DNA of 64,000 nucleotides from Odontesthes bonariensis (taxonomy: Eukaryota > Chordata > Actinopteri > Atheriniformes > Atherinopsidae): positions 17,597,822 to 17,661,821 of the forward strand of contig NC_134516.1 in NCBI RefSeq assembly GCF_027942865.1, in the 5' to 3' direction. This document shows, piece by piece, positions 225-24,782 of the stretch (position 1 is the stretch's first letter; every line of letters begins with the position of its first letter). The translations under genes and the position numbers were made by a program. A model generated the notes under the pieces. That model was not told the DNA's origin and did no database searches. It worked only from the letters and a program-made list of their open reading frames with translations.

Positions 225-3200
225 CATTTCTCTGCCGGTGCGCCTGTCAGCAGTCCACTCAGCACGTCTCCTCTCAGTGACTTTGCTGCTTCCACAAACG
301 CAGAGAAACCTGGCAGGAGAAACATCGAGGTCACCTTTTATGCAGGCATTAATAAAAAGATAAAGCAGGCTATGAAGACACATGGAAAAGCAGGAAAATT
401 CCATATTCAGTCTTATTTCCGTTTAATCTGCTCTGAACTCCGATATTTGAAGGCATTCAAAATTACATCTTAAAAGATTACAATAGGATCAAATCTGGGG
501 AGTATTTGGAGTCTTTGTACCGTTTTTGGTGTCGAGGTTCAGTGCTCTAACACCAGATGCCAAATCCTGATATTCAAAATACTTTTTAGACGTAATTTTT
601 AGCTTCTTCCCTCCATTTTGAGTGTTTTAGCTGATATATGTTTCAGTTTCTTTCCTCATCACAATAATCTGGTTCTGGTTCCTGAATGGTTCCGGTTCTC
701 TCTGGTTCCGGTTCCTGAATGGTTCCGGTTCTCTCTGGTTCTGGTTCCTGAATGGTTCCGGTTCTCTCTGGTTCTGGTTCCTGAATGGTTCCGGTTCTCT
801 CTGGTTCTGGTTCCTGAATGGTTCTGGTTCTCTCTGGTTCCGGTTCCTGAATGGTTCCGGTTCTCTCTGGTTCCGGTTCCTGAATGGTTCTGGTTCTCTC
901 TGGTTCTGGTTCTCTCTGGTTCTGGTTCTCTCTGGTTCTGGTTCCTGAATGGTTCTGGTTCTCTCTGGTTCTGGTTCCTGAATGGTTCTGGTTCTGGTTG
1001 CTGAATGGTTCTGGTTCCTGAATGGTTCTGGTTCTCTCTGGTTCTGGTTCTCTCTGGTTCTGGTTCCTGAATGGTTCTGGTTCCTGAATGGTTCTGGTTC
1101 CGGTTCTCTCTGGTTCTGGTTCCTGAATGGTTCTGGTTCTCTCAGGTTCTGGTTCTCTCTGGTTCCGGTTCCTGAATGGTTCCGGTTCTCTCTGGTTCCG
1201 GTTCCTGAATGGTTCTGGTTCTCTCTGGTTCTGGTTCTCTCTGGTTCTGGTTCTCTCTGGTTCTGGTTCCTGAATGGTTCTGGTTCTCTCAGGTTCTGGT
1301 TCTCTCTGGTTCTGGTTCCTGAATGGTTCTGGTTCTGGTTGCTGAATGGTTCTGGTTCCTGAATGGTTCTGGTTCTCTCTGGTTCTGGTTCTCTCTGGTT
1401 CTGTTTCCTGAATGGTTCTGGTTCCTGAATGGTTCTGGTTCCGGTTCTCTTTGGTTCTGGTTCCTGAATGGTTCTGGTTCTCTCTGGTTCTGGTTCCTGA
1501 ATGGTTCTGGTTCCTGAATGGTTCTGGTTCTCTCTGGTTCTGGTTCTCTCTGGTTCTGGTTCCTGACGGTTCTGGTTCTGGTTCCTGAATGGTTCTGGTT
1601 CTCTCTGGTTCTGGTTCCTGAATGGTTCTGGTTCTCTCTGGTTCTGGTTCCTGAATGGTTCTGGTTCTCTCTGGTTCTGGTTCCTGAATGGTTCTGGTTC
1701 TGGTTGCTGAATGGTTCTGGTTCCTGAATGGTTCCGGTTCTCTCTGGTTCTGGTTCTCTCTGGTTCTGGTTCCTGAATGGTTCTGGTTCTCTCTGGTTCT
1801 GGTTCCTGAATGGTTCTGGTTCCTGAATGGTTCTGGTTCCTGAATGGTTCCGGTTCCTGAATGGTTCCGGTTCTCTCTGGTTCTGGTTCCTGAATGGTTC
1901 TGGTTCTCTCTGGTTCTGGTTCCTGAATGGTTCTGGTTCTCTCTGGTTCTGGTTCCTGAATGGTTCTGGTTCTCTCTGGTTCCGGTTCCGGTTCCTGAAT
2001 GGTTCCGGTTCTCTCTGGTTCCGGTTCCTGAATGGTTCCGGTTCTCTCTGGTTCTGGTTCCTGAATGGTTCTGGTTCTCTCTGGTTCTGGTTCCTGAATG
2101 GTTCTGGTTCTCTCAGGTTCTGGTTCTCTCTGGTTCTGGTTCCTGAATGGTTCTGGTTCTGGTTGCTGAATGGTTCTGGTTCTCTCTGGTTCTGGTTCCT
2201 GAATAGTTCTGGTTCTCTCTGGTTCTGGTTCCTGAATAGTTCTGGTTCTCTCTGGTTCTGGTTCCTGAATGGTTCTGGTTCTCTCTGGTTCTGGTTCCTG
2301 AATGGTTCTGGTTCCTGAATGGTTCTGGTTCCGGTTCCTGAATGGTTCCGGTTCTCTCTGGTTCTGGTTCCTGAATGGTTCCGGTTCTCTCTGGTTCTGG
2401 TTCCTGAATGGTTCCGGTTCTCTCTGGTTCTGGTTCCTGAATGGTTCCGGTTCTCTCTGGTTCTGGTTCCTGAATGGTTCTGGTTCTCTCTGGTTCTGGT
2501 TCCTGAATGGTTCTGGTTCTCTCTGGTTCTGGTTCTCTCTGGTTCTGGTTCCTGAATGGTTCTGGTTATCTCTGGTTCTGGTTCCTGACGGTTCTGGTTC
2601 TGGTTGCTGAATGGTTCTGGTTCTCTCTGGTTCTGGTTCCTGAATGGTTCTGGTTCTCTCTGGTTCTGGTTCCTGAATGGTTCTGGTTCTGGTTGCTGAA
2701 TGGTTCTGGTTCCTGAATGGTTCCGGTTCTCTCTGGTTCTGGTTCTCTCTGGTTCTGGTTCCTGAATGGTTCTGGTTCTCTCTGGTTCTGGTTCCTGAAT
2801 GGTTCTGGTTCTCTCTGGTTCTGGTTCCTGAATGGTTCCGGTTGCTGAATGGTTCCGGTTCCTGAATGGTTCTGGTTGCTGAATGGTTCCGGTTCCTGAA
2901 TGGTTCTGGTTCTTGAATGGTTCTGGTTCTCTCTGGTTCCGGTTCCTGAATGGTTCCGGTTCTCTCTGGTTCTGGTTCCTGAATGGTTTTGGTTCTCTCT
3001 GGTTCTGGTTCTCTCTGGTTCTGGATCCTGAATGGTTCTGGTTCTCTCTGGTTCTGGTTCCTGAATGGTTCTGGTTCTCTCTGGTTCTGGTTCTCTCTGG
3101 TTCTGGTTCCTGAATGGTTCTGGTTCTCTCTGGTTCTGGTTCCTGAATGGTTCTGGTTCTCTCTGGTTCTGGTTCCTGAATGGTTCTGGTTCTCTCTGGT

Positions 3201-6200
3201 TCTGGTTCCTGAATGGTTCTGGTTCTCTCTGGTTCCGGTTCCTGAATGGTTCTGGTTCTCTCTGGTTCCGGTTCCTGAATGGTTCTGGTTCTCTCTGGTT
3301 CTGGTTCTCTCTGGTTCTGGTTCTCTCTGGTTCTGGTTCCTGAATGGTTCTGGTTCTCTCTGGTTCTGGTTCCTGAGTGGTTCTGGTTCTCTCAGGTTCT
3401 GGTTCCTGAATGGTTCTGGTTCCTGAATGGTTCTGGTTCCTGAATGGTTCCGGTTCTCTCTGGTTCTGGTTCCTGAATGGTTCCGGTTCTCTCTGGTTCT
3501 GGTTCCTGAATGGTTCTGGTTCTCTCTGGTTCTGGTTCTCTCTGGTTCTGGTTCCCTCTGGTTCTGGTTCCTGAATGGTTCTGGTTCTCTCAGGTTCTGG
3601 TTCTCTCTGGTTCTGGTTCCTGACGGTTCTGGTTCTGGTTGCTGAATGGTTCTGGTTCTCTCTGGTTCTGGTTCTCTCTGGTTCTGGTTCTCTCTGGTTC
3701 TGGTTCCTGAATGGTTCTGGTTCTCTCTGGTTCTGGTTCCTGAGTGGTTCTGGTTCTCTCAGGTTCTGGTTCCTGAATGGTTCTGGTTCCTGAATGGTTC
3801 CGGTTCTCTCTGGTTCTGGTTCCTGAATGGTTCCGGTTCTCTCTGGTTCTGGTTCCTGAATGGTTCTGGTTCTCTCTGGTTCTGGTTCTCTCTGGTTCTG
3901 GTTCCCTCTGGTTCTGGTTCCTGAATGGTTCTGGTTCTCTCAGGTTCTGGTTCTCTCTGGTTCTGGTTCCTGACGGTTCTGGTTCTGGTTGCTGAATGGT
4001 TCTGGTTCTCTCTGGTTCTGGTTCCTGAATGGTTCTGGTTCTCTCTGGTTCTGGTTCCTGAATGGTTCCGGTTCTCTCTGGTTCTGGTTCCTGAATGGTT
4101 CCTGAATGGTTCTGGTTCTCTCTGGTTCTGGTTCCTGAATGGTTCTGGTTCCTGAATGGTTCCGGTTCTCTCTGGTTCTGGTTCCTGAATGGTTCCGGTT
4201 CTCTCTGGTTCTGGTTCCTGAATGGTTCCGGTTCTCTCTGGTTCTGGTTCCTGAATGGTTCTGGTTCTCTCTGGTTCTGGTTCCTGAATGGTTCTGGTTC
4301 TCTCTGGTTCTGGTTCTCTCTGGTTCTGGTTCCTGAATGGTTCTGGTTCCTGAATGGTTCTGGTTCTCTCTGGTTCTGGTTCCTGAATGGTTCTGGTTCT
4401 CTCTGGTTCCGGTTCCTGAATGGTTCCGGTTCTCTCTGGTTCCGGTTCCTGAATGGTTCCGGTTCTCTCTGGTTCTGGTTCCTGAATGGTTCTGGTTCTC
4501 TCTGGTTCTGGTTCCTGAATGGTTCTGGTTCTCTCAGGTTCTGGTTCTCTCTGGTTCTGGTTCCTGAATGGTTCTGGTTCTGGTTGCTGAATGGTTCTGG
4601 TTCTCTCTGGTTCTGGTTCCTGAATGGTTCTGGTTCTCTCTGGTTCTGGTTCCTGAATGGTTCTGGTTCTCTCTGGTTCTGGTTCCTGAATGGTTCTGGT
4701 TCTCTCTGGTTCCGGTTCCTGAATGGTTCCGGTTCTCTCTGGTTCTGGTTCCTGAATGGTTCCGGTTCTCTCTGGTTCTGGTTCCTGAATGGTTCCGGTT
4801 CTCTCTGGTTCTGGTTCCTGAATGGTTCTGGTTCTCTCTGGTTCTGGTTCCTGAATGGTTCTGGTTCTCTCTGGTTCTGGTTCCTGAATGGTTCTGGTTC
4901 TCTCTGGTTCTGGTTCCTGAATGGTTCTGGTTCTCTCTGGTTCTGGTTCCTGAATGGTTCCGGTTGCTGAATGGTTCCGGTTCCTGAATGGTTCTGGTTG
5001 CTGAATGGTTCCGGTTCCTGAATGGTTCTGGTTCCTGAATGGTTCTGGTTGTCTCTGGTTCCGGTTCCTGAATGGTTCTGGTTCTCTCTGGTTCTGGTTC
5101 CTGAATGGTTCTGGTTCTCTCTGGTTCTGGTTCCTGAATGGTTCTGGTTCCTGAATGGTTCTGGTTCTCTCTGGTTCTGGTTCCTGAATGGTTCTGGTTC
5201 CTGAATGGTTCCGGTTCTCTCTGGTTCTGGTTCCTGAATTGTTCTGGTTCTCTCTGGTTCTGGTTCCTGAATGGTTCCTGAATGGTTCTGGTTCTCTCTG
5301 GTTCTGGTTCCTGAATGGTTCTGGTTCTCTCTGGTTCTGGTTCCTGAATGGTTCTGGTTCTCTCTGGTTCTGGTTCCTGAATGGTTCTGGTTCTCTCTGG
5401 TTCTGGTTCCTGAATGGTTCTGGTTCTCTCTGGTTCCGGTTCCTGAATGGTTCTGGTTCTCTCTGGTTCTGGTTCCTGAATGGTTCTGGTTCTCTCTGGT
5501 TCCGGTTCCTGAATGGTTCTGGTTCTCTCTGGTTCCGGTTCCTGAATGGTTCTGGTTCTCTCTGGTTCTGGTTCTCTCTGGTTCTGGTTCTCTCTGGTTC
5601 CGGTTCCTGAATGGTTCTGGTTCTCTCTGGTTCTGGTTCCTGAGTGGTTCTGGTTCTCTCTGGTTCTGGTTCCTGAATGGTTCTGGTTCCTGAATGGTTC
5701 TGGTTCCTGAATGGTTCTGGTTCTCTCTGGTTCTGGTTCCTGAATGGTTCTGGTTCTCTCTGGTTCCGGTTCCTGAATGGTTCTGGTTCTCTCTGGTTCT
5801 GGTTCCTGAATGGTTCTGGTTCTTTCTGGTTCCGGTTCCTGAATGGTTCTGGTTCTCTCTGGTTCCGGTTCCTGAATGGTTCTGGTTCTCTCTGGTTCTG
5901 GTTCTCTCTGGTTCTGGTTCTCTCTGGTTCTGGTTCCTGAATGGTTCTGGTTCTCTCTGGTTCTGGTTCCTGAGTGGTTCTGGTTCTCTCAGGTTCTGGT
6001 TCCTGAATGGTTCTGGTTCCTGAATGGTTCCGGTTCTCTCTGGTTCTGGTTCCTGAATGGTTCCGGTTCTCTCTGGTTCTGGTTCCTGAATGGTTCCGGT
6101 TCTCTCTGGTTCTGGTTCCTGAATGGTTCTGGTTCTCTCTGGTTCTGGTTCTCTCTGGTTCTGGTTCCTGAATGGTTCTGGTTCTCTCTGGTTCTGGTTC

Positions 6201-9200
6201 CTGAATGGTTCTGGTTCTCTCAGGTTCTGGTTCTCTCTGGTTCTGGTTCCTGACGGTTCTGGTTCTGGTTGCTGAATGGTTCTGGTTCTCTCTGGTTCTG
6301 GTTCCTGAATGGTTCCGGTTCTCTCTGGTTCTGGTTCCTGAATGGTTCCGGTTCCTGAATGGTTCCGGTTCCTGAATGGTTCCGGTTCCTGAATGGTTCC
6401 GGTTCTCTCTGGTTCTGGTTCCTGAATGGTTCTGGTTCTCTCTGGTTCTGGTTCCTGAATGGTTCCGGTTCCTGAATGGTTCTGGTTCCTGAATGGTTCT
6501 GGTTCTCTCTGGTTCTGGTTCCTGAATGGTTCTGGTTCTCTCTGGTTCCGGTTCCTGAATGGTTCTGGTTCTCTCTGGTTCCGGTTCCTGAATGGTTCCG
6601 GTTCTCTCTGGTTCTGGTTCCTGAATGGTTCTGGTTCTCTCTGGTTCTGGTTCTCTCTGGTTCTGGTTCCTGAATGGTTCTGGTTCTCTCAGGTTCTGGT
6701 TCTCTCTGGTTCTGGTTCTGGTTGCTGAATGGTTCTGGTTCTCTCTGGTTCTGGTTCCTGAATGGTTCTGGTTCTCTCTGGTTCTGGTTCCTGAATGGTT
6801 CTGGTTCTCTCTGGTTCTGGTTCCTGAATGGTTCTGGTTCCTGAATGGTTCTGGTTCTCTCTGGTTCCGGTTCCTGAATGGTTCCGGTTCTCTCTGGTTC
6901 TGGTTCCTGAATGGTTCCGGTTCTCTCTGGTTCTGGTTCCTGAATGGTTCCGGTTCTCTCTGGTTCTGGTTCCTGAATGGTTCTGGTTCTCTCTGGTTCT
7001 GGTTCCTGAATGGTTCTGGTTCTCTCTGGTTCTGGTTCTCTCTGGTTCTGGTTCCTGAATGGTTCTGGTTCTCTCTGGTTCTGGTTCCTGACGGTTCTGG
7101 TTCTGGTTGCTGAATGGTTCTGGTTCTCTCTGGTTCTGGTTCCTGAATGGTTCTGGTTCTGGTTGCTGAATGGTTCTGGTTCCTGAATGGTTCCGGTTCT
7201 CTCTGGTTCTGGTTCTCTCTGGTTCTGGTTCCTGAATGGTTCTGGTTCTCTCTGGTTCTGGTTCCTGAATGGTTCTGGTTCTCTCTGGTTCTGGTTCCTG
7301 AATGGTTCCGGTTGCTGAATGGTTCTGGTTGCTGAATGGTTCCGGTTCCTGAATGGTTCTGGTTCCTGAATGGTTCCGGTTCTCTCTGGTTCTGGTTCCT
7401 GAATGGTTCTGGTTCTCTCTGGTTCTGGTTCCTGAATGGTTCCTGAATGGTTCTGGTTCTCTCTGGTTCTGGTTCCTGAATGGTTCTGGTTCTCTCTGGT
7501 TCTGGTTCCTGAATGGTTCTGGTTCTCTCTGGTTCCGGTTCCTGAATGGTTCTGGTTCTCTCTGGTTCTGGTTCCTGAATGGTTCTGGTTCTCTCTGGTT
7601 CCGGTTCCTGAATGGTTCTGGTTCTCTCTGGTTCCGGTTCCTGAATGGTTCTGGTTCTCTCTGGTTCCGGTTCCTGAATGGTTCTGGTTCTCTCTGGTTC
7701 TGGTTCTCTCTGGTTCTGGTTCTCTCTGGTTCTGGTTCCTGAATGGTTCTGGTTCTCTCTGGTTCTGGTTCCTGAGTGGTTCTGGTTCTCTCAGGTTCTG
7801 GTTCCTGAATGGTTCTGGTTCCTGAATGGTTCTGGTTCCTGAATGGTTCTGGTTCCTGAATGGTTCCGGTTCTCTCTGGTTCTGGTTCCTGAATGGTTCC
7901 GGTTCTCTCTGGTTCTGGTTCCTGAATGGTTCCGGTTCTCTCTGGTTCTGGTTCCTGAATGGTTCTGGTTCTCTCTGGTTCTGGTTCTCTCTGGTTCTGG
8001 TTCCTGAATGGTTCTGGTTCTCTCTGGTTCTGGTTCTCTCTGGTTCTGGTTCCTGAATGGTTCTGGTTCTCTCAGGTTCTGGTTCTCTCTGGTTCTGGTT
8101 CCTGACGGTTCTGGTTCTGGTTGCTGAATGGTTCTGGTTCTCTCTGGTTCTGGTTCCTGAATGGTTCTGGTTCTCTCTGGTTCTGGTTCCTGAATGGTTC
8201 CGGTTCTCTCTGGTTCTGGTTCCTGAATGGTTTCTGAATGGTTCTGGTTCTCTCTGGTTCTGGTTCCTGAATGGTTCTGGTTCCTGAATGGTTCCGGTTC
8301 TCTCTGGTTCTGGTTCCTGAATGGTTCCGGTTCTCTCTGGTTCTGGTTCCTGAATGGTTCCGGTTCTCTCTGGTTCTGGTTCCTGAATGGTTCCGGTTCT
8401 CTCTGGTTCTGGTTCCTGAATGGTTCTGGTTCTCTCTGGTTCTGGTTCCTGAATGGTTCTGGTTCTCTCTGGTTCTGGTTCCTGACGGTTCTGGTTCTGG
8501 TTGCTGAATGGTTCTGGTTCTCTCTGGTTCTGGTTCTCTCTGGTTCTGGTTCCTGAATGGTTCTGGTTCTGGTTGCTGAATGGTTCTGGTTCCTGAATGG
8601 TTCCGGTTCTCTCTGGTTCTGGTTCTCTCTGGTTCTGGTTCCTGAATGGTTCTGGTTCTCTCTGGTTCTGGTTCCTGAATGGTTCTGGTTCTCTCTGGTT
8701 CTGGTTCCTGAATGGTTCCGGTTGCTGAATGGTTCTGGTTGCTGAATGGTTCCGGTTCCTGAATGGTTCTGGTTCCTGAATGGTTCCGGTTCTCTCTGGT
8801 TCTGGTTCCTGAATGGTTCTGGTTCTCTCTGGTTCTGGTTCCTGAATGGTTCCTGAATGGTTCTGGTTCTCTCTGGTTCTGGTTCCTGAATGGTTCTGGT
8901 TCTCTCTGGTTCTGGTTCCTGAATGGTTCTGGTTCTCTCTGGTTCTGGTTCCTGAATGGTTCTGGTTCTCTCTGGTTCCGGTTCCTGAATGGTTCTGGTT
9001 CTCTCTGGTTCTGGTTCCTGAATGGTTCTGGTTCTCTCTGGTTCCGGTTCCTGAATGGTTCTGGTTCTCTCTGGTTCCGGTTCCTGAATGGTTCTGGTTC
9101 TCTCTGGTTCCGGTTCCTGAATGGTTCTGGTTCTCTCTGGTTCTGGTTCTCTCTGGTTCTGGTTCTCTCTGGTTCTGGTTCCTGAATGGTTCTGGTTCTC

Positions 9201-12200
9201 TCTGGTTCTGGTTCCTGAGTGGTTCTGGTTCTCTCAGGTTCTGGTTCCTGAATGGTTCTGGTTCCTGAATGGTTCTGGTTCCTGAATGGTTCCGGTTCTC
9301 TCTGGTTCTGGTTCCTGAATGGTTCCGGTTCTCTCTGGTTCTGGTTCCTGAATGGTTCCGGTTCTCTCTGGTTCTGGTTCCTGAATGGTTCTGGTTCTCT
9401 CTGGTTCTGGTTCTCTCTGGTTCTGGTTCCTGAATGGTTCTGGTTCTCTCTGGTTCTGGTTCTCTCTGGTTCTGGTTCCTGAATGGTTCTGGTTCTCTCA
9501 GGTTCTGGTTCTCTCTGGTTCTGGTTCCTGACGGTTCTGGTTCTGGTTGCTGAATGGTTCTGGTTCTCTCTGGTTCTGGTTCCTGAATGGTTCTGGTTCT
9601 CTCTGGTTCCGGTTCCTGAATGGTTCCGGTTCTCTCTGGTTCTGGTTCCTGAATGGTTCTGGTTCTCTCTGGTTCTGGTTCCTGAATGGTTCCGGTTCCT
9701 GAATGGTTCTGGTTCCTGAATGGTTCTGGTTCTCTCTGGTTCTGGTTCCTGAATGATTCTGGTTCTCTCTGGTTCCGGTTCCTGAATGGTTCTGGTTCTC
9801 TCTGGTTCCGGTTCCTGAATGGTTCCGGTTCTCTCTGGTTCTGGTTCCTGAATGGTTCTGGTTCTCTCTGGTTCTGGTTCTCTCTGGTTCTGGTTCCTGA
9901 ATGGTTCTGGTTCTCTCTGGTTCCGGTTCCTGAATGGTTCCGGTTCTCTCTGGTTCTGGTTCCTGAATGGTTCCGGTTCTCTCTGGTTCTGGTTCCTGAA
10001 TGGTTCCGGTTCTCTCTGGTTCTGGTTCCTGAATGGTTCTGGTTCTCTCTGGTTCTGGTTCCTGAATGGTTCTGGTTCTCTCTGGTTCTGGTTCTCTCTG
10101 GTTCTGGTTCCTGAATGGTTCTGGTTCTCTCTGGTTCTGGTTCCTGACGGTTCTGGTTCTGGTTGCTGAATGGTTCTGGTTCTCTCTGGTTCTGGTTCTC
10201 TCTGGTTCTGGTTCCTGAATGGTTCTGGTTCTGGTTGCTGAATGGTTCTGGTTCCTGAATGGTTCCGGTTCTCTCTGGTTCTGGTTCTCTCTGGTTCTGG
10301 TTCCTGAATGGTTCTGGTTCTCTCTGGTTCTGGTTCCTGAATGGTTCTGGTTCTCTCTGGTTCTGGTTCCTGAATGGTTCCGGTTGCTGAATGGTTCTGG
10401 TTGCTGAATGGTTCCGGTTCCTGAATGGTTCTGGTTCCTGAATGGTTCCGGTTCTCTCTGGTTCTGGTTCCTGAATGGTTCTGGTTCTCTCTGGTTCTGG
10501 TTCCTGAATGGTTCCTGAATGGTTCTGGTTCTCTCTGGTTCTGGTTCCTGAATGGTTCTGGTTCTCTCTGGTTCTGGTTCCTGAATGGTTCTGGTTCTCT
10601 CTGGTTCTGGTTCCTGAATGGTTCTGGTTCTCTCTGGTTCCGGTTCCTGAATGGTTCTGGTTCTCTCTGGTTCTGGTTCCTGAATGGTTCTGGTTCTCTC
10701 TGGTTCCGGTTCCTGAATGGTTCTGGTTCTCTCTGGTTCCGGTTCCTGAATGGTTCTGGTTCTCTCTGGTTCCGGTTCCTGAATGGTTCTGGTTCTCTCT
10801 GGTTCTGGTTCTCTCTGGTTCTGGTTCTCTCTGGTTCTGGTTCCTGAATGGTTCTGGTTCTCTCTGGTTCTGGTTCCTGAGTGGTTCTGGTTCTCTCAGG
10901 TTCTGGTTCCTGAATGGTTCTGGTTCCTGAATGGTTCTGGTTCCTGAATGGTTCCGGTTCTCTCTGGTTCTGGTTCCTGAATGGTTCCGGTTCTCTCTGG
11001 TTCTGGTTCCTGAATGGTTCCGGTTCTCTCTGGTTCTGGTTCCTGAATGGTTCTGGTTCTCTCTGGTTCTGGTTCTCTCTGGTTCTGGTTCCTGAATGGT
11101 TCTGGTTCTCTCTGGTTCTGGTTCTCTCTGGTTCTGGTTCCTGAATGGTTCTGGTTCTCTCAGGTTCTGGTTCTCTCAGGTTCTGGTTCTCTCTGGTTCT
11201 GGTTCTGGTTGCTGAATGGTTCTGGTTCTCTCTGGTTCTGGTTCCTGAATGGTTCTGGTTCTCTCTGGTTCTGGTTCCTGAATGGTTCCGGTTCTCTCTG
11301 GTTCTGGTTCCTGAATGGTTCCTGAATGGTTCTGGTTCTCTCTGGTTCTGGTTCCTGAATGGTTCTGGTTCCTGAATGGTTCCGGTTCTCTCTGGTTCTG
11401 GTTCCTGAATGGTTCCGGTTCTCTCTGGTTCTGGTTCCTGAATGGTTCCGGTTCTCTCTGGTTCTGGTTCCTGAATGGTTCCGGTTCTCTCTGGTTCTGG
11501 TTCCTGAATGGTTCTGGTTCTCTCTGGTTCTGGTTCTCTCTGGTTCTGGTTCTCTCTGGTTCTGGTTCCTGAATGGTTCTGGTTCTCTCTGGTTCTGGTT
11601 CCTGAATGGTTCTGGTTCTCTCAGGTTCTGGTTCTCTCTGGTTCTGGTTCCTGACGGTTCTGGTTCTGGTTGCTGAATCGTTCTGGTTCTCTCTGGTTCT
11701 GGTTCCTGAATGGTTCTGGTTCTCTCTGGTTCTGGTTCCTGAATGGTTCTGGTTCCTGAATGGTTCTGGTTCTCTCTGGTTCTGGTTCCTGAATGGTTCT
11801 GGTTCTCTCTGGTTCTGGTTGCTGAATGGTTCTGGTTCTGGTTCCTGAATGGTTCCGGTTCTCTCTGGTTCTGGTTCTCTCTGGTTCTGGTTCCTGAATG
11901 GTTCTGGTTCTCTCTGGTTCTGGTTCCTGAATGGTTCCGGTTGCTGAATGGTTCCGGTTGCTGAATGGTTCCGGTTGCTGAATGGTTCCGGTTGCTGAAT
12001 GGTTCTGGTTCTCTCTGGTTCTGGTTCCTGAATGGTTCTGGTTCCTGAATGGTTCTGGTTCTCTCTGGTTCTGGTTCCTGAATGGTTCTGGTTCTCTCTG
12101 GTTCTGGTTCCTGAATGGTTCTGGTTCCTGAATGGTTCTGGTTCTGGTTGCTGAATGGTTCTGGTTCTCTCTGGTTCTGGTTCTCTCTGGTTCTGGTTCC

Positions 12201-15200
12201 TGAATGGTTCTGGTTCTCTCTGGTTCTGGTTCCTGAATGGTTCTGGTTCTCTCTGGTTCTGGTTGCTGAATGGTTCTGGTTCTGGTTCCTGAATGGTTCC
12301 GGTTCTCTCTGGTTCTGGTTCTCTCTGGTTCTGGTTCCTGAATGGTTCTGGTTCTCTCTGGTTCTGGTTCCTGAATGGTTCCGGTTGCTGAATGGTTCCG
12401 GTTGCTGAATGGTTCCGGTTGCTGAATGGTTCTGGTTCTCTCTGGTTCTGGTTCCTGAATGGTTCTGGTTCCTGAATGGTTCTGGTTCTCTCTGGTTCTG
12501 GTTCCTGAATGGTTCTGGTTCTCTCTGGTTCTGGTTCCTGAATGGTTCTGGTTCCTGAATGGTTCTGGTTCTGGTTGCTGAATGGTTCTGGTTCTCTCTG
12601 GTTCTGGTTCTCTCTGGTTCTGGTTCCTGAATGGTTCTGGTTCTGGTTGCTGAATGGTTCTGGTTGCTGAATGGTTCTGGTTCTCTCTCTGGTTCTGGTT
12701 CTCTCTGGTTCTGGTTCCTGAATGGTTCTGGTTCTGGTTGCTGAATGGTTCTGGTTCCTGAATGGTTCTGGTTCCTGAATGGTTCCGGTTCCTGAATGGT
12801 TCTGGTTGCTGAATGGTTCTGGTTCTGGTTGCTGAATGGTTCCGGTTCCTGAATGGTTCTGGTTGCTGAATGGTTCTGGTTCTGGTTGCTGAATGGTTCT
12901 GGTTCCTGAATGGTTCCGGTTCTGGTTGCTGAATGGTTCTGGTTCTGGTTGCTGAATGGTTCTGGTTGCTGAATGGTTCTGGTTCTCTCTGGTTCTGGTT
13001 CTCTCTGGTTCTGGTTCTCTCTTAACTTGATTGATTAGTTTCTTCCCAGTAAACAAACACAGCCAACAGTCTTGTTTTGGCACATGGATGCTGTCAGGTC
13101 AGTTAATTAAGTTAATATAAACGCTAAAAACCAACCTTCTACAGTTGCTTGTATTTGATTCTGAAGGATATCTTGTGATCCGTTAGTTTGAGTAACATCA
13201 TTTAGACTTTTTGGATTCCGACCATGAAAGGGATCAAAGGTCGTCATCAGCCGGTGAGGTGGAGCGAAGCGGCCTCTTACCCGTCTGTGAATTTGCCTGG
13301 AACAGTCCCAGGATCCTGTCAGGTCTGAACCCTGAGAGCTCAGGGTGAGGTACTTCCTGGAGGAATGATGTCACTTCCTCTTGGGCGGACAGCAGCAGAG
13401 GAGAGGCCGTGCGGCTCCTGGTTAAAGAGTCAGAAGGTCGACACACGTTTATCTCAAAGTCTAATAAATAACTCCCATGGCACACGTTGGTTATTTTCTT
13501 CTCACATCATGATGAAGCGGTGCAGCGCCTCACTACCCAGCATGCCTCTGTAGTGCTGGGCTGACTCCTGGGGGCGGAGCAACAGGACACCGGGAAAGGC
13601 CGTGATTGGCTGGAAAGGGACGGCCGCGCCCGGCTCAGCGGCACACAGGTCGGTCCACTCTCCACAGTCGATGGCGCTCATCTGAACATCGTCAACGTCT
13701 GAATCTAAAGAGACAATTTAAGGAGACATCTGATGACATCTTACAGATGAGTCATAACAACAAGTCAGAGACTCAAAGCTCAGACGTAAGCATCTGTGGC
13801 ACCTGCTGTGGGACTGGGAGCACAACTAAAGAAGGAGGATCAAAAGAATCTGCGGACCACTGGAATTAAAGAAAGAGATTATCCTCATGGTTATATTTAC
13901 CTCATTTAGACGCCAGGAATCAAATCAAAACTTTATTTATAAAGCACTTTTCATACATTAAAAATGTAGCACAAAGTGCACAAAGTGCTACATTTTTGGG
14001 AAGGTTCCCAAAGCACAGCCTGAAACCATGCTGCAGAATCCAATGAGCAGCCCATATTATAGGTTTATTTTATCTAAGAAAGCCACCTCGTCTTCAAAGC
14101 TTAGTTAAACCGTCAGAAATCTGGGAGTGACCTTTGACCTTTGATCTGAGGTCGGACAAACAAATGAACAATGTTGTCAGGACTAGTTTTTTCCAGTTGC
14201 ATCTCCTGGCCAAAGTTAAAATGTTTTTAAGTTGACCTTGAGAAAGCCATCCATGCCCTAATAAGTTCAAGGTCAGACTATTGCAATGCACTTTATGTTT
14301 CCCAGTCTTCTCTCAGCCGCCTTCAGCTGGTGCAGAACGCTGCTGCCCGTCTTTTAACCAACACCAACAGACGTGTGCACATCACTCCTGTTCTTAACTC
14401 CCTCCATTGGCTTCCTGTCCTTTATAGAACTGATTTTAAACTTTTAAATGTTTGTTTTTAAAGCTCTTAACGGCCTCGCCCCATCGTATTTATCTGAGCT
14501 GTTAACAGTCCTGGTCGAGCTCTGAGGTCAACAGATCAGTTTCTGCTGGAATTTTGTTGTATTTTATTGCTTTCACTGTTCTTTTATTGTTTTTATTTGT
14601 TTTTACTTATTCTTCTCTTTATTTATTATCATTTTTTTTATTATTATCAATGTGTTCCATCCCCGACCCTGTCAGCTTACAGCTGTTTAACAGCCACGTC
14701 TAGTCTTTAAACTGCTGAGTGTCGGGTATAACCGACGGTTGGACCTTTTTCATGAAGTTTGGCCACTTGTTAGGACTTTTCCACACGAGAAAGGACTCGT
14801 TAGGTCACATCCTCCGACATGCATTCGTTTACCTGCAAGTCTCTCTGCAACTTCAATGAAGGAGCTGAGAAAAGCCACTGAAACAGCATCCCCTGGTGGT
14901 GAGAAATAAAAACAGCGCTTGATTTAACCCAGACATGATCAACTTTAACTTTATATTTTTTTTTATTAACAATATGTTTATTGTTTTTTAGAAAGAACAT
15001 ACAGTCACAGGGACAGTAACATTACGAACATCCCTCCTCCCCCCACCCTCGACAGCACAGTCAGGGAAAAAAAAAAACTTTAACTTTATATTTGACACAC
15101 TGAAGTTCTTTTTTAAAAGAATTAACACAAAAGAGCGATAAACATGCCGCAGGAGTAATCTGCGTCTTACATTTGAGGTAGAAGAGCGCCACCGTGAGGC

Positions 15201-18200
15201 TGCTTTGTGCCACTCTGGTGTGGAAGTTGTCGGAGGTCAGATGGGTTATCGAGTCCAGGTCCAGCGAGTCGCCTCGGTTTGCAAAGACAGACGCTGCAAT
15301 TTCATCATCCAGCTTTCCTGGAGACACAAGCAGAACCAGAAATGTACTCCTGCTCCTCTTTTTCTTCCTACTGGTTCATGTTTGATTCCTCTCTGCCACA
15401 CTCTTGCAAATATGCATTTCTACATATAAAACACTCCACAAAAAAAGAAACAACACAGCCAATACATTTTCAATTAAGACCACATTTATCTTAATACTGG
15501 GATGAGCGGAAGCTGGCATGCATGTCCTTGACTTTCTTCATGTTGTATTTGTAGTTTGTTGTTGTAATCATAGTGAGAAATTCAGGATGAGCACGGTTTT
15601 TTTGCTGGTTTTTGCCCTTTTTTAGTTAAAAACCGATCCATTGTGCCTGCATCTCGCGCTGGCTAAAGGAGCTAGCGTGCACTGCGGTTTAAGCGGGCTG
15701 CGTTGCCAGGTTTAACAGAGCCCCCTTTAGGAAACACCATTAAGCCTTAATTAATACTTAATAAAAATACTTAATACTACAAAAACGCAAACTTAATAAA
15801 AATACTTAATACTGTGCAGTATTCGCTGTGTGTTATTTGAAAAAAATGTATTGTTATTTTTACCATATTGTTATAAGCTACTATGCGAGTGCGAGCCACC
15901 AACTAAAGCTTGAGGAGCCGCACAATGAGTATCTCTGCTCTACATGTTTACCAAAATGTGAATCCTCCTCCTCGTCCTCCTCTTCATCCTCCTCTTCCTC
16001 CTCTTCTTCTTCTTCTTCTTTCTCTTGGTTTGTGAAGAGCTCCAGCACATCATCGAGGCTGTGTAAGGTCAGATACTTCACCTCTGAGCCCTGGAAGCGC
16101 ACGCAAACACAGAATAAGAGGAAGGAGTAACTTCAGCCTGTCAGTTGGTGTGTGAGCGCCGTACCTCGTCGGGCAGCCGGTAAGCAGCGTTGTATTCGTC
16201 GGGGGTTTTCACTGCAGGACTCTGCCTGTTCAACACAGCCAGACAGTGACAAAGATGGACTGAGACTTTGGGGTAACGGTATCAGAGACGGCAGAGACGT
16301 GTGTTCAGATGGGAGATCATACGTGTACCTGCAGGTTCTGCACACCTGTGTACAAGCAGCAGCAGAGCGAGCCCACGCAGCCTCCAGGCCAACGTCGCGG
16401 CAGTGCCCAGGTCCAGGTGCTCGGTTGCGGGATGAGAGAACAGGAATACCTGCGGGGTCAGCTGGTACGGGAACTGTGGGGACGGGACTGAGGAGGGGTC
16501 CACGTATACTTCAGACTGGCAGGGAGAGACAGGACTTATATTCACAGCTGCCTTTTTAATGGAGCTGCAGCAGAGACATCCCTATGTGTGAATGCGTGAG
16601 AACACGTGCAAGTAAAATAAGGAGGAGATTGTTGGCATCTTTAACCCAGATAGTCACCGTGGTTCAACTTCAAATCGGACGGCTGTGGCAGGACTTTCCC
16701 ACCATGATTGGTTAGCAGTTAGCTCAATCTGATTGGTGCGTTAACCCGAGCATCACCACTGGTTACTCACAGGCGAGTGTATTTGATTTGTACCCGTCAT
16801 CACACACTCAAATATATTAATACAAGCTACAAGACTTTTGTCTCTAAGATGTGCTGCAGAATCAGACAAAACTGCAGCTAAAAGTAATTCATCAAGCACA
16901 CGAGTCCATGAGTGGACCTGTGGGGCTGGTCTTTATCCATCCTCAGACGGAATGATAAGAGTGCCACAAAAAATAATAAACCTGGAAAAGAATAGGAAAG
17001 AAATAAACAAATGTATTTTAAATTAGGGCTGGGCGAGTTAACTTGTTATTATCACGTTAACTCGTTAATTATTTAACGCCGATAAATATTTTATCGCGCA
17101 TTGACGCAGGTTTTATTATTTATTTTATTTTGTAAAAGTCTGTTGCTGTCTGCGGCGGAACCGGAAAAGAAAGTAATCGGCGGATCCACCAAACATGGAG
17201 AAGGGTACGGAACTTTTACTCTGCCATTTTCATTTTAAAGTTCTTCCAGACGACGGAGTCGACAGAACCAAAGTCATCCGTAAACACTGCCAAGTTGAAT
17301 TGTCTTCTCACCGTAGTAGTTCCAGTCTAAAATATCACTTAAAGGCAAAACACACAACTGATAGCAGCAAGTCATTCAAGGAAACAGACAGTGGAGCGAG
17401 GCTTCTACATAAAAACTACAGAAAGATGCTGATGTTAAAAGTGTGTTTGCACAACAAATGTTATGACACTTTCATTCATATGGCAGCACATTTAAAATAA
17501 AGCTAAAAGCTATTCACTACTTTTGAATTCATTTTTGCATTTTGCGTACAAATGCGATTAATCGTGATTAATCAGGGAAATCATGTGATTAATTAGATTA
17601 AACATTTGAATCGTTGCCCAGCCCTAATTTTAAAAAGGCAGAAATATAAAGCCAAATGTCCCTTTTATGTTTTGTCATTTCTTTGTCTTTAGATGTAAAA
17701 ATACAGATGTGTTTGCTCTTTAAACGGCGCTCTTATCGTTCCATACGGCAGACACACTCAGAGTCTTAGATGTTGGTCTGTTTTTTACCACCAGCGGCGC
17801 CTCCATAAGCTGCAGGAAGGAGTGCAGGCTCAGCGTGGACAGGAGCCTCCTCATGCGCGTCACAGGGCAGCGCTCGGCAGTCATCGGGGTCACGAAACCA
17901 CTGTGAACTCTGCAGTGGAGGAACCACACTCGAGAGGACAGAGACGACTCGTTGACTCTAAAACAGATGCAGAGAGAACTGCTCTTGTACAAATCTCGAC
18001 TAAACCAATAATACATCAAACCATTAACTGTCTTCAGCATTAATAACCTAAAGACTTCGCACTGTATTCTATCTAGTTAACGCACGAGTTAAATGTTGAT
18101 TGTTTTTGCCTTTTCGTGGTGTGTTTCTTAGAGTATTTGCTGGTCTGAGGTCTCAGGAACAAGCAGCCATTCAACTAAATTAGATTTACTCTTATCTTGT

Positions 18201-21200
18201 TACATCTGATAGGCTTGCACAATATTTTCCACCACAAGCTCTGCTCCTGCCAGCAAACACGGCTGCGTTTGATTCACATCACAAAAAAAAGAAAAGGATC
18301 TTACCCCAACTGCTTCAAAACCGGACCTCCGGTTATGAGAATAAACTGATATTTAGATCCGTACACGTACGCCGTCTCCATCATCGATCTGTGCTCTGAA
18401 TTAACACAATTAAATTCATTTAGTGGCAGTTATGTCAGTTTTCTAACTCCATCAAACATCAAGAGAGCTCACAGAATACTAATTAGTTATCAGTCACTTC
18501 TGTTTCTGTCACTTTAAGCCCTTTTTTCCCCCTCTCCATCCTCACCTAATGTCCCCAAACTGCGAACGTAACCCAAAACAATGTCCTTCTTCCCTCTGGC
18601 AGCCTTCTCCATGGCCAGCAGGTCGGCGTCTGTGTGGACGTACTTTACCTCTTCACGCAGGATGGCGCTGAAGGAGAAAGACACAGAAACTGGTTTCCAT
18701 CGATCTCACACGACATTCCTGTGCCTGAATATTCTAGACTTAACTCCGTCTCTGTTCCCCTTGTTCTTTCCAACTTCTCTGCCTTACCTCCATAACATTG
18801 TAATTCATGGGCTTACTCACAATAGGACTTCAGAGACGATGGAGTTCACATCAAACACTGTGTCCAAGTCGAAACTCAAGAACTCCTTTCCGCCTCTGCA
18901 AACACAAAGACGTGGGGCCGAGTTTCAGAGGGTTCAGTGCAAAGCAGCTCAGCTCACATGAAGGTTACGGCGCTCGTTTGGGTTGAAACAGCTGTGCCGA
19001 CAAGTATTTCTGTCATTCAGCCTAAATAACCTCTTAGTTGTACATGATTAACCATAAGATTGTGACCACTGACCTGAGGGGGATTATGCTGTCACAATAC
19101 CACCTGGCAAAGCATGAGATACATCAGGCAGAAAGTCAGCCTTTTGTACCGTGAGTTGATGTGTTAGAAGCAGAAAAAACGGGAAAGTGGAAGCATTAGA
19201 GCGACTCCGACAAAGGCAAAACTGTGCGAGGCAGACGGCTGGGTCATACCATCTCCACAACTGCAACACTTGTGGGATGTTTGCTCTGCAGAGGTAAACC
19301 CAGAGGTGAACCTACAAAAGGGTATCAGGCAGCCCAGACACACCGATGCACCTGGGGAGCAAAGACTGTCCTCCAATCCAATAAAAGGAGCTAATGCAGC
19401 TCACAAAGTTGAATAAGTTCATGGTGGTTCTGACAGAAAAGTGTCACAGTTTGTTGCAGACCTGCTTCTTCTGCTGAAAGCTCTTTCCACAGACAGGTCA
19501 GCATCAGAATCTGGAACAATGGGTTTGAACCGGTGCTCCAAATTCTCCAGATCTCAGTCATGTTGATCATCTCTGTACAGGCTTAAAGGCTCGCCTGGTG
19601 GCTCGGTGTCAGATACCACAGCAGACCTTCAGATGCAGAGTCCATGCCTCAGGGGGGCCTACTGAGCATCCGGCAGGGGGTCATGTCATAGCAGATCTAT
19701 GTAAAGTCTCACAAACACAATCAACTCGTCTTTTTTTTTTTATCCTACAGTGACGTCTTATCAGCAGCAATCCATCCAAACTACCAGTTTGCCTCTGGAG
19801 GCTGGAACATTTATCTGATTACCAGGCGTGAAAGGAAGTTAAAGCTGGGAGCTTCAATTAGAGGTTTTAATACTGTTTACAAGCAGGTTGGGGGAGACAC
19901 ACTGCTGATGGAGGCTTCTTAGATCAAAAACTGATCCCAATGTAGAACTACGTTTCTCCTACACTGACCATTTTCAGTTTTTTTCTTTGTTAAGCCGCTT
20001 AACTCTGACCTATGAATTATTCAGGCAGGAAAAAGGCTCCTAACTCAAGGGATGAACCAGAGTTGTGTCCACACAGAACAGACAACTTAGGAAAGAAGCC
20101 ATTTTAAACTGGATCTTTAGGCACTTTGTTCCCAGCAGCCTGTCACAGAGACACATCATCTGTTCCCATTTCTTTAGCTTCATCTGTGAAAAACAGCAAA
20201 GATAACACAGTCTGACAGACAGAAAACAGGATTTCTGCAGCAACAAGGTGATTCCCAAAGAGCTGTTAGCTGAAAACTTGGCATATCTCAGCATGGTGTG
20301 CAGTGTGTCCTTAAAACATTTGAGGAAACTGGACCAGTGGAGGACAAAAGAAGAAGCGTCAGGCCTAAAGAACTATCTACAGCAGATGAACAGGATCTGA
20401 AAGTGATGTCCTTCAGAAAGAGGAAAACATCCAGCAAAGACCTGACACAGGAGCTGAGAGATGCATCTGGACCTTCAGCTGATCCATCTGCTGTTGGCCC
20501 AAGCCTCATCAGAAACGGGCTCCATGGAAGGGTGGCTGTCAGGAAGCCGTTCTTAAGGAAGGGAAACAGGGAGAAAAGGCTGAGCTGTGCCAAAGGACAC
20601 AAGAAGTGGGCTGAAAATCAGTGGCAGCAGGTCTGATGGAGGGATGAATCCTCCCCAGAGCCCGGAGCTCAACATTACTGAAGCAGTGTGGGATCATGTT
20701 GGCAGAGAACGGAACAAAAGGCAGCCCACATCCAAAGAAGAGCTTTGGGATGTCCTTCAAGAAGCCTGGAGAACTATTCCTGAAGACTGCTTAAAGAAAG
20801 GACACAAAGCTTGCACCCACGGTTTCCTGGTTATTTTCTGACTAATCATCACTGAAAACTTCCACTCGACCCACCTGAACAGAAAAGCTGTGTGCCGCAG
20901 TCTTCCTTCCGTGCAGTATGTGCGAACCAGCCCTTTCTTACAGCTGACCTGCAACGGCAAAAAGGCAAAAACAGAATGTATCTGCCACACACTCACCTGT
21001 TGGTGTGCTAATCTTAAAGCGGACATATAATGGGACTTTTTTCTGTGGCAGACGGCATATATTTGGTATGTCTCAAGTCAAAAACCCAGAGAAAACACAA
21101 CCAAGGCATTTTGTTTTAGGCCCTGTGTATCATTCAATGAACCATTTAGATGTAATTTATGTCACTTTTCAAGGTTAACCAGCCTCCTCATCAGTATCTC

Positions 21201-23175
21201 CACCTGACTACAACTTCAGATGGTGTGGAAAGTTCAAACTCTTAGATTTAGTCTCATCATTAGTTATATTCTTCATTGAACTGAAGAAATAAGTGAACTC
21301 GTAAATAATGCTCTGGCAGTCCTTTAATATTTTATATCCCAACATGGAAATTTGACTTTGAATTGTGGGTCTTTAATATATTTACCAGCTGGATGTTAGA
21401 ATTCCTGTTTTCCATTTGTCACTGCTGTCACAAAAACAACTGCTGGGGAAAAATTGTCCAAATAAGCAACGGTTCTTAATGTTAGCTGCTTAAAACTTCG
21501 ATAAAACGCAGAGGAAAGGAACGACAGTGAAGTTTAAAGTCTATGGAGCCAATTTGTTATGATTTCTTACAATGCGAGTCCTCAGTGGTGTTTTCACCCG
21601 ACCAGCAGAACTATTAAGTTCTGCGATGTGTTTAAACAACTTGGGCCAGTTCAACACATGACTGGTGATGAGATGGTGCCTTAAAAGAGGGATCAGTAGC
21701 CTTTCAGCTGCCCATGGTCCAACTGCAGATGAAGGAAATTTAAGTATTTGAGTATAAAATAACGGGTGAAGTACTTTTCCATCAGTTTGGTTTGTGGTCT
21801 GAGCTCTCTCACACGAGCATTAACATGCTCCAGGGTTATTGAGTACTACAGATCTCAAAAGAGGAAAAACCCTGAGGAAAAGAGGGGCAAAGTGGAGTTA
21901 AGTTGGTCAGTCCACGTATGAATCGAGGTGGAAATCTTTGTTGTTTTGACCAAAGAATGTCGTGGAGATTTCATTAAGATCTCAGGAAATTGTGTCAGCT
22001 TTGGGGAAAAGGGCAGAAAATGTCAACAAAAGGAGCACAAAGCATAGATAGGGCTGTGACTACCTTGCCAACCAGAACTCCATAATCCTGCAGAGCTTCA
22101 GCAGACTTCTCCAACTCCACCAGGAACAGAGAGATGGTTGGAGAGACTGGAAACAGGACGGAGCACAGGGAAACGCTGTTAGTCTTGAATAATTCAAGCG
22201 TCTGATTACCAGACAGGATAAATGGATCTTCTCATTTATATTATCATCTTCTAACTGAGTCAAGACTGATATTTCACTTTAAATGTGAATCAGTGAATGA
22301 TTGTAAAAGACCTTTTTACATCAGATCGCATCATAATCAACGTTTATCAGCATCTGGGCAGTCGAGCAAGGAGGGCAAATACATCCCAATTATTAAATGA
22401 ACCTATCAATGCCAAAAATCCGGTGATTACATTCAAGCAGCCCATATCAATGAGTCGTGCATGAAAATAGTCCTTGACTGGATATAATGTAACTTTAAAT
22501 GACCTATTATAATTTAAAGTGACATAACATGAGCTAATATTACTCATTCCTATAAAACATTACAACTCCACGAGATATGTGGGTATGACGTAGACACTGA
22601 GAATAGCAAGAACATCTTTGTAATTATTCAAATCATATTGTGACATTTTGTAATGCTATTTCATTTCTACATTCCAGATGGACTGTCCTACCTTTTTCCA
22701 GCCATAAACCATGGCCTATAATTCTGACTATTCAGCTCGACTCAACACTTAACTGTTCTAGATGTTCTAGATTTCGCATCACCCTCAAAGTAACCCAAAC
22801 ACTTGTGAATCGTTGCTTCTTACATGAAGAAAAAGAGGTGAAGAGAACTGGTGGTGACAAACTATGTATGCTTTTATGTTTATCAGCCATGTAAAAAAAA
22901 AAAAAGACAATATACCCCGTTTAAAGTATTAGATCAAAAGAAAAAAATTATCCGGTCCTAAAACATAGTTTTCACACAAAAGATTGAGTTGTTTACCTGT
23001 AATATAGTGTGAAAAGCTTACCTTGATGCTCGAAATAGATAAACATAATCTTCCCAGAGTGCAATTTATCATAAAAGTCTGCAGCTGTGAATTCAATGTG
23101 GTCTGACGTGTTGGCCTTTTCTGAGCATCCTCCTGCCCTCATCCACAGCAGGAAGGCAGCGATACAAACCCACAT
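225..23175 (-). CDS. txndc16: Thioredoxin domain-containing protein 16 (partial, 15 coding exons)
   Basis: TXNDC16 (ERp90) is a soluble ER-luminal glycoprotein with thioredoxin-like folds that lack a redox CxxC. Coding exons in transcript order: 23022-23175, 22064-22146, 20875-20948, 18821-18895, 18546-18667, 18305-18395, 17789-17957, 16346-16515, 16165-16225, 15952-16090, 15171-15317, 14833-14892, 13506-13704, 13281-13417 and 225-309. All have AG/GT borders and matching phases, giving about 588 residues. The start ATG at 23175 opens a signal peptide (MWVCIAAFLLWMRAGGC). Diagnostic stretches are LQDYGVLVGK, VYGSKYQFIL, LLLSAQEEV and RILGLF. Exon 10 carries a glutamate-rich tract of about 20 residues. 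The next domain has WDAVSVAF where an active thioredoxin would have CxxC. A 5' UTR exon probably ends at the donor at 23473. Later exons, about a quarter of the protein, lie beyond the left edge. Identity is firm; single exon ends could be off. Confidence 0.9.
671..13022. repeat. Giant modular minisatellite in txndc16 intron 14
   Basis: About 12.35 kb is built only from short GGTT-starting modules: GGTTCT or GGTTCC (6 bp), GGTTCTCTCT (10 bp), GGTTCCTGAAT and GGTTGCTGAAT (11 bp). The commonest combination is a 33-bp unit (6+10+6+11). The plus strand is G/T-rich and nearly free of A outside GAAT; the minus strand, which is the txndc16 sense strand, is A/C-rich. Longer blocks recur: sequence near 7147 returns at 8557 and 10219 (offsets 1,410 and 1,662 bp), and a 350-bp block at 3427 returns at 3777. 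The GGTTGCTGAAT variant becomes frequent towards the right end (about 11,940-13,000). Both borders are abrupt. Because 33 is a multiple of 3, long ORFs appear in several frames and are not evidence of genes. The copy number here may reflect assembly limits. Confidence 0.97.
14090..14700 (+). mobile_element. L2-type LINE, reverse transcriptase C-terminal fragment
   Basis: Translation with frame changes gives a typical end of an L2/CR1-group ORF2: QLVQNAAAR (14326-14353), then a SLHWLPVLYR-like stretch (14402-14431) and ALNGLAPSYLSEL. Stops and frameshifts show that it is dead. It sits in txndc16 intron 12, antisense to the gene. Simple T-rich sequence follows. Confidence 0.75.
14941..15093 (-). 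mobile_element. Short 5'-truncated LINE insertion with 18-bp target duplication
   Basis: The 18-mer AACTTTAACTTTATATTT occurs at 14941-14958 and again at 15076-15093. Between them are 117 bp which, on the minus strand, end in an AATAAA-like stretch and a poly(A) run (seen as T-rich 14955-14972). A long direct repeat plus poly(A) is the signature of LINE-machinery retrotransposition. The inserted body is too short to name a family. It lies in txndc16 intron 11 in the gene's orientation. Confidence 0.75.
17015..17634 (+). mobile_element. Non-autonomous hAT-like element with BED zinc finger
   Basis: The ends are inverted copies of TAGGGCTGGGC, and the element (17023-17626) is flanked by perfect 8-bp direct repeats ATTTTAAA at 17015-17022 and 17627-17634. 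An 8-bp duplication is the hAT rule. An ORF from 17195 to 17500 encodes a BED-finger-like segment (VDRTKVIRKHCQVELS, then SSLKYHLKAKH, about residues 23-55), as at the N-terminus of hAT transposases. The catalytic part is absent, so it could only move with help in trans. It is inserted in txndc16 intron 7. Confidence 0.85.
19040..19710 (+). mobile_element. Tc1-like transposon relic, internally deleted
   Basis: Sequence from about 19150 to 19440 follows the 5' half of a common fish Tc1-like transposase. The 19530-19690 part gives its C-terminal end, recognisable as PNSPDL and CQIPQQTF in translation. The middle catalytic part is missing and frames are broken. The outer ends (ATTGTGACCACTGACCTG near 19057; GGTCATGTCATAGCAGATCTAT near 19680) look like decayed inverted termini. 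It lies in txndc16 intron 3, antisense to the gene. Confidence 0.7.
20158..20850 (+). mobile_element. Tc1-like transposase relic, central deletion
   Basis: An N-terminal part at 20298-20637 encodes ETGPVEDKRRS, RPKELSTADEQ, GLHGRVAVRKPFLRKGNR and ENQWQQV, then a stop. A C-terminal part at 20650-20840 encodes PPQSPELNITEAVWDH and RERNKRQPTSKEELWDVL. These are the helix-turn-helix region and the end of a Tc1-like DDE transposase. The DDE core between them has been lost. It lies in txndc16 intron 2. Confidence 0.85.
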
Positions 23176-23473
23176 CCTGAAGAAGAAACTGGACTGTGTT
23201 CTCTGAGATGAAAAATAAATATTTCGTACATTTGTATATATTATGACACAAAGAACAAGAACACAGTGGTCTGAGCAAAAAGGCAAACATGGTTGACTTC
23301 AGTGACACAGCTATTTGAACACTGTGCTCAGACTACAGCTGTGTTTTCTTTTTTCACAAGTGTTAGTTTGACTTTAATTCTGATACAATTTGCTCATAAT
23401 TGTCAATAAGAACACATTAGCCTCTGCAAAAAGATCCAAGCAGAGACAAGGAACAAGGTAGTCTTCGGTTACC

Positions 23474-24782
23474 TGAGAAAGTAGAGCTGGGGTGCAAAAA
23501 GGTTCAACTTTTGTCCTTCCAAGAGACAAACACTTTAGTAACCACAGCTAAACCCGTGGTGAAAGCAAAGAAAGCCATTTTTATACTTTACCACTACTAC
23601 TATTCAGAAACGTAACGTTATGTGATGCTAGTTTTTAAGCTAGCTTTGTTAGCTGCCTACTGTTGGGTATTCGTCCATGTCTCAAAGCTAAAAGCTAACA
23701 TTATCTTGTATTTGCTCAAAATAAATGTGTCGGTGTCTGTCCGTGGTAAATGTAGGTCACACAAAGATATACTTCGCAATGTTATTGTTCTTTTAATTCT
23801 CTTAAAAGAAAGATGCTCAATCAATGCTCGAGTTATAAGAGTTAACATGGCACTTCCTGTTATAGTTTCAGAATAAAACGCGTAACTTAAACGATTTCGG
23901 TTTTGGGGTGAAAATCATCTTAAGAAATAACTCACAATGTAATATAATATCATAAATAAGGTAACTTCTTCTTTAAACGTGCTGTTATTTGAATCAACGT
24001 GTTGCTTTTCGTGATTAGCTATAATGTATGCCTTTATTTTGATAGCTCCAAGACTCTAAAATCGTTGGATTTTCCTAACTTGAAGCAACTCGGGAGAAAC
24101 GTCCAATGAGCCCCATTTGAACCAATCAGATCAGGGAATAGTTTTCAGTTAAACAAACGACCAATCACAAGATCGCAGGGGGCGGGCACGTTCGCAGCTG
24201 ACATAATCGAAAGCCAATGAGGTGAGCAATGCGTGGAGGTTGGGTGGCCGTTTTAGCCAATGGAATTGTAAACTGGATAAATGGGCGTGGTTGTTTTGAT
24301 TACAGAAATATTTCTCAGAAACTGGCTGTCTTCTGTGGCTCTGCAGTCAGCTGTTTCTTATGAAAGTAATGCTGGTAACGAGCCAAAATGGCGATCCTTA
24401 AAGCGCTAGTTTCCGTTTTTATTGGGAACAAGGGGGTGGGTCTTAAACTGCATCACAGCTGATCTGGAGGTTTTTCCCCCCTCAAGTTGTTTTTTTGCAG
24501 AGCGCAGCTTTGCAGACAATCACAGGGACACCTCTGTCTTGTTTTCTTTCTTGTTATTTTTAACCCAGCGCCTTTTAAAACTATATAATTGTTTTTCCTC
24601 TTTGGTTTTGCCATTTGAAACCCCAGACTAGTTTAAGAATGCCACTTATTTCCAGAAGAAACTGCTTTTATCACAAATATCATTGTCTTTTTGTCATCCA
24701 CGGTGAATTTAGCCCAGGTTTGACCCACTTTTAGCGTCTTTGCCTTCAAAGCATCTCGTGTTAGTGCGAATCGCCAGTGGAG
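23474..24782. promoter_or_regulatory. Divergent txndc16/gpr137c promoter region
   Basis: The two genes start head to head here. Five CCAAT pentamers, all on the plus strand, lie at 24103, 24122, 24161, 24214 and 24257. A GC box GGGGGCGGG lies at 24178-24186 among them. No clear TATA box was seen. Clustered CCAAT boxes are the classic NF-Y arrangement in bidirectional promoters; that they work here is inference. The txndc16 5' exon probably ends at 23473 (CTCAG/GTAACC on the minus strand). Confidence 0.65.

Follow-up and report, generated by a model that had tools for sequence, protein, structure and literature searches.

A 12.35-kb minisatellite takes up most of one txndc16 intron in Odontesthes bonariensis

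We analysed a tandem array in a 64,000-nucleotide stretch of Odontesthes bonariensis DNA, called the window throughout (assembly GCF_027942865.1, 945 Mb in 187 contigs; contig NC_134516.1, here C16:17597822-17661821). The array, a 12,353-bp block at 670-13022, was found to dominate one intron of the minus-strand txndc16 gene. This assignment is supported, and bears out the 12.35-kb intronic minisatellite that an initial annotation of the same DNA had described. We consider it very probable that the array is a single-locus intronic minisatellite and a candidate variable number tandem repeat (VNTR), which grew by slippage and exchange and is tolerated with no function needed. Array words are read on the plus strand, and the sense strand of txndc16 is the minus strand. 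The array and its immediate surroundings are as follows.

670..13022, no strand: tandem array of YGGTTC-type hexamer pairs with CTGAA and TCTC separators, usual dimer 33 bp
310..13280, minus strand: txndc16 intron with the array, 12,971 bp
13281..13417, minus strand: 137-bp txndc16 exon on the upstream side of the intron, placed by phase, splice sites and Thioredoxin_6
225..309, minus strand: 85-bp txndc16 exon on the downstream side of the intron, with a 3′ limit (225) set by a weak donor
13023..13280, minus strand: non-repeat donor-side intron flank, 258 bp
310..669, minus strand: non-repeat acceptor-side intron flank, 360 bp

The array is a single, gap-free block with no N and no foreign inserts. 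Tandem Repeats Finder (TRF) reported it at 668-13022 with a period of 33, 373 copies, 86% matches and a score of 12452, while an overlapping row gave a period of 17; these head-to-tail units fall in the ~10-100 bp range of a minisatellite. YGGTTC-type hexamers (1,493 words) made up 72.5% of the array bases, the commonest being TGGTTC (1,279) and CGGTTC (142), and two separators, CTGAA (369) and TCTC (335), stood between them. In the usual arrangement, two hexamers and a CTGAA are followed by two hexamers and a TCTC, and together these form the 33-bp dimer. When hexamer pairs were sorted by the separators on their two sides, we counted 254 CTGAA-2-TCTC, 241 TCTC-2-CTGAA, 82 CTGAA-2-CTGAA and 65 TCTC-2-TCTC. 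Repetition was nested at levels of 6, 12, 16/17 and 33 bp, followed by irregular blocks of up to ~1.1 kb. The earlier description of one pure tandem array is therefore right about how far the array extends and about its freedom from foreign inserts, but not about uniformity, as the array is a mosaic of several words.

Exons 13417-13281 and 309-225 on the minus strand join in matching phase, and the array takes up 95.2% of the intron between them. The expectation that two phase-matched exons enclose an intron made almost wholly of the array was thus confirmed, and it gained further support from protein profile matches. Exon candidates were predicted with simple splice matrices, and 20 kb reaching past the window was fetched to predict the txndc16 exons 3′ of the array. 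With exact splicing, a chain of seven predicted exons, of which four are in the window and three lie past its edge, was in phase and stop-free over 359 amino acids; the start of the last of them is uncertain, with several AG to choose from. The three downstream exons alone matched Thioredoxin_6 at 25.0 bits (E 1.9e-5, profile positions 39-183), and the match rose to 32.6 bits (E 9.4e-8, profile positions 1-183) when both array-flanking exons were prefixed. With shuffled flanking exons the score was 23.5-24.7 bits with profile starts at 33-39, and none of the five shuffles improved the match; a run in which the junctions were approximated agreed with this. Of exon 13417-13281, the match covers no more than the final 7-8 residues, indicating that the gain comes mostly from exon 309-225; exon 13417-13281 is also supported by its phase and splice sites. 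Pfam and PDB searches with the two flanking exons alone gave no match, and support appeared once the downstream exons were added. Codon scores of both flanking exons were modestly coding-like (for 309-225, 0.200 in the sense frame versus 0.192 in the antisense frame), and the presumed donor at 224 was weak, at -1.8 with the simple matrices. Retention of the intron would place an in-frame stop 15 codons into it, ahead of the array. Altogether, the phase chain and the Thioredoxin_6 gain place the array between two same-strand exons of one gene.

Among the other predicted exons, the joined pair 18667-18546 and 18395-18305 matched Pfam TXNDC16_2nd with an E of 5.4e-30, and the exon ending at 23022 matched TXNDC16_N with an E of 4.6e-4 and 21.1 bits, under the cut-off of 27. 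These exons in the window are listed below.

13506..13698, minus strand: txndc16 exon candidate, weak thioredoxin-like match
18305..18395, minus strand: txndc16 exon candidate, TXNDC16_2nd jointly with 18546..18667
18546..18667, minus strand: txndc16 exon candidate, TXNDC16_2nd jointly with 18305..18395
23022..23176, minus strand: txndc16 early coding exon, TXNDC16_N, below cut-off

Two further observations were made within txndc16. A second minisatellite at C16:17595733-17596594, outside the window, has a 24/36-bp unit over ~860 bp with 85% matches, and occupies the greater part of the 1,310 bp that separate two later exon candidates of the gene. The open frame at 15881-16132 on the minus strand contains a long run of acidic E/D residues, with a simple repeat at 15962-16020, and is possibly an exon.

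The repeat unit was found to be specific to this locus. A diagnostic 22-mer of the unit occurred 309 times in the whole genome, always on the plus strand, and 309 times in the window, indicating that the unit is private to the txndc16 intron. The exact array unit had no match in viral_contigs (two patterns) or in genome_contigs (one pattern). A dispersed satellite family with this exact unit was rejected, as the 22-mer is private and only the hexamer theme is shared.

This theme was found in other arrays of the genome. A less strict DNA search yielded 134 matches in other arrays among the best candidates scored, which were merged by eye into 35 loci; 33 of them were placed, and the loci on C27 and C113 were left out. 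For 19 of the 33 a contig end is no more than 2.5 Mb away, against 12.7% expected under a uniform spread over those contigs, and for 32 it is no more than 5 Mb away, against 25.4% expected, with the limit that 11 of the 33 are on C22 and clustered loci are not independent. Runs of (GGTTCY)x4 were 34 times commoner in the genome than the reversed pattern (649 versus 19). The first 100 of the 649 places were merged by eye into 40 loci, from which three on C4 were left out, and 27 of the remaining 37 are no more than 5 Mb away from the end of their contig (21.7% expected). In 20 fetched hexamer regions the YGGTTC hexamer was common to all, with other spacers or periods, and the private spacer contexts CTGAATGG and GGTTCTCTCTGG, looked for in the largest hexamer cluster, occurred in none of the 20. 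Taken together, these results show that the YGGTTC theme recurs in many differently built minisatellites, which in both samples lie mostly close to the ends of contigs; for the txndc16 array itself, the nearer end is 17.6 Mb away.

Within the same first 100 (GGTTCY)x4 places, the ten interior loci of the 37 all lie on C2 at 32.46-38.46 Mb, counter to the contig-end trend, and a further locus was seen on C4 at 18.35 Mb.

We then consider how the array is built internally. Its longest exact internal repeat is 1,095 bp, at an offset of 1,662, and several further exact repeats of 200-420 bp are present. Two parts of the array stand out.

8414..9531, no strand: duplicated block at an offset of 1,662, ~1,117 bp at 99.3% identity, with 1,095 bp from 8421 exact; second copy from ~10076
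11470..13022, no strand: more diverged right part of the array, with the TTGCTGAA variant enriched from ~11670

Stretches of at least 150 bp at 96-99% identity were present at all 12 other offsets tried in the array. The best ungapped internal match was determined for 61 segments of 200 bp, and a match of at least 96% was found for 36 of 42 segments in the centre (3070-11270) and 4 of 12 in the left part, while none of the 7 right-hand segments reached it; the limits of these three parts were set after the data were seen. For the last segment of the array the best ungapped match was 67%, a value to which insertions and deletions may contribute.

Slippage and unequal exchange, acting repeatedly, would produce such a nested and irregular structure. 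The starting point may have been a short run of hexamers in this intron, which would first have grown by slippage, and unequal exchange or conversion-like duplication would later have copied ever larger blocks. This block duplication would have homogenised the centre of the array and left its ends diverged. The long identical blocks (1,095 bp) make both polymorphism and collapse in the assembly plausible. A real array whose length or internal blocks are misrepresented in the assembly, through collapse or false duplication, seems unlikely to us: assemblers can be misled by its exact repeats, which reach 1,095 bp and include several of 200-420 bp, but the array holds no N and many distinct variant words along it can anchor long reads.

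The content of the transcribed strand bears on how a single-locus minisatellite of this size could be tolerated. On the sense strand of the array, the 11 GT all stand in a single variant context; AG occurs 2,019 times, and no pyrimidine run is longer than 3. This strand has no ATG, no AATAAA and 20 stop codons. At a threshold of 3 we found no donor-like and no acceptor-like site on this strand, versus 17 and 42 in 9.3 kb of txndc16. Tolerance would come from the position of both splice-signal regions outside the array and from a transcribed strand that is nearly free of competing splice sites, and the lack of a start codon or AATAAA on this strand may add to the tolerance. The earlier suggestion that the array hinders splicing appears to have no support at the sequence level, where sense-strand splice motifs are near absent and non-repeat flanks of 258 and 360 bp separate the array from the exons.

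Several points weigh against this account of growth and tolerance. The growth is read from one allele. The antisense strand likewise lacks any donor-like site above the threshold and has 18 weak acceptor-like sites, the sense strand does hold its 2,019 AG, and the simple splice matrices score the presumed real donor at 224 at -1.8. Moreover, 49% of random units of array composition had no GT and no pyrimidine run longer than 3, compared with 2.0% at local intron composition. The scarcity of decoys thus follows from base composition; it fits tolerance and is no evidence of selection. Selection against splice decoys, considered separately, was rejected as having no support beyond base composition.

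A contrasting possibility is that txndc16 is modulated by the length of the array, whose growth would lower expression or alter the splicing of neighbouring exons. We regard this as improbable. The length of the human ABCA7 array is reported to correlate with exon 19 skipping (PMC5954066) and long CACNA1C alleles to be associated with lower expression in fibroblasts and testis (PMC13131567), and the txndc16 array makes up nearly all of its intron. However, its sense strand carries no splice-site-like decoy at the threshold, and the ABCA7 array is described as starting at the splice donor itself, whereas 258 bp lie between donor and array here.

That the array codes for a repetitive protein on the sense strand, with open frames of up to 1,651 amino acids, was rejected as next to impossible: stop-free stretches are long in all three minus-strand frames, but 43% of random units of array composition are stop-free in all frames, so that long open frames are expected, and the 20 sense stop codons, the lack of a sense ATG, the continual frame shifting by 4- and 5-nt separators and 16/17-nt units, and the lack of a splice-site-like motif at the threshold inside the array all speak against coding.

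Structured nucleic acids were also considered. A 264-nt sample of the array, folded as sense RNA, was no more stable than its shuffles (z 0.13), and a structured RNA was rejected; as DNA, the same sample was more stable than shuffles for the plus strand (z -5.6) and less markedly so for the minus strand (z -2.4), with weak energies of -19.8 and -11.8 kcal/mol. No G-quadruplex motif of four G tracts with loops of 1-7 occurs in the array on either strand, two-tier or three-tier, and with loops of up to 12 there were 371 two-tier matches on the plus strand and 4 on the minus strand. An Rfam scan of the window at the gathering score found no family.

Elsewhere in the window we observed two Tc1/Tc3-type transposase pieces, one at 20274-20633 on the plus strand (HTH_Tnp_Tc3_2, E 2.6e-10) and one at 57622-58083 on the minus strand (HTH_Tnp_Tc3_2, E 1.3e-6, below cut-off). 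An 899-codon open frame at 59939-62638 on the plus strand carries PH and IRS-type PTB domains and belongs to an insulin receptor substrate gene. The plus-strand open frame at 24765-25220, which we take to be GPR137C-like, had no Pfam match at E 0.1.

By itself, the array is of little consequence, except as a large marker that may be polymorphic and as a trap for assemblers. It does bear on the question of whether transcription and splicing select which tandem repeats become giant in introns, because its transcribed strand is almost free of splice-site motifs over 12 kb. A broader idea, which we hold to be doubtful, is that giant intronic minisatellites are filtered by their sense-strand content and could exceed 10 kb only if nearly blind to the spliceosome, that is, with no GT, no pyrimidine tract and no poly(A) signal on the sense strand. 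If this were true, large intronic arrays would show a genome-wide strand bias, with the txndc16 array as an extreme case.

Among the matches listed in our literature search there was no report of this locus, and the two papers listed for TXNDC16 with tandem repeats dealt with TXNDC12 and ferroptosis and with selection scans in cattle; the array is new as a locus, as far as that search shows, and ordinary in kind. The initial annotation had called it unusual, which stands for its size, but arrays of equal or greater length are present in human introns. A minisatellite has been linked to alternatively spliced regions in Caenorhabditis elegans (PMC4039745), and teleost lineages differ in short-repeat content (PMC10546739). 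Human VNTR arrays can exceed 10 kb, some with irregular kilobase higher-order structure (PMC2588610); the 18-kb array of 61-bp units at Xp22.33/Yp11.32 resembles the txndc16 array in its order of size and in its irregular kilobase blocks over a short unit, but it is pseudoautosomal, whereas the array described here is 17.6 Mb from the nearer contig end. The VNTR in intron 18 of human ABCA7 has 25-bp units and spans 298-10,678 bp, and skipping of exon 19 correlates with its length (PMC5954066). It is likewise intronic, and its long alleles greatly enlarge the intron; it extends from the splice donor, whereas the txndc16 array is parted from both splice sites by non-repeat DNA. The human CACNA1C intronic VNTR (TRACT) has 30-bp units and measures 3-30+ kb (PMC13131567). 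The two are alike as kilobase-scale intronic arrays of ~30-bp units with point variants, and the size range of TRACT spans 12 kb. However, the expansion of TRACT is ascribed to perfect single-variant tracts, whereas the txndc16 array is a mosaic with two separator types and irregular duplicated blocks.

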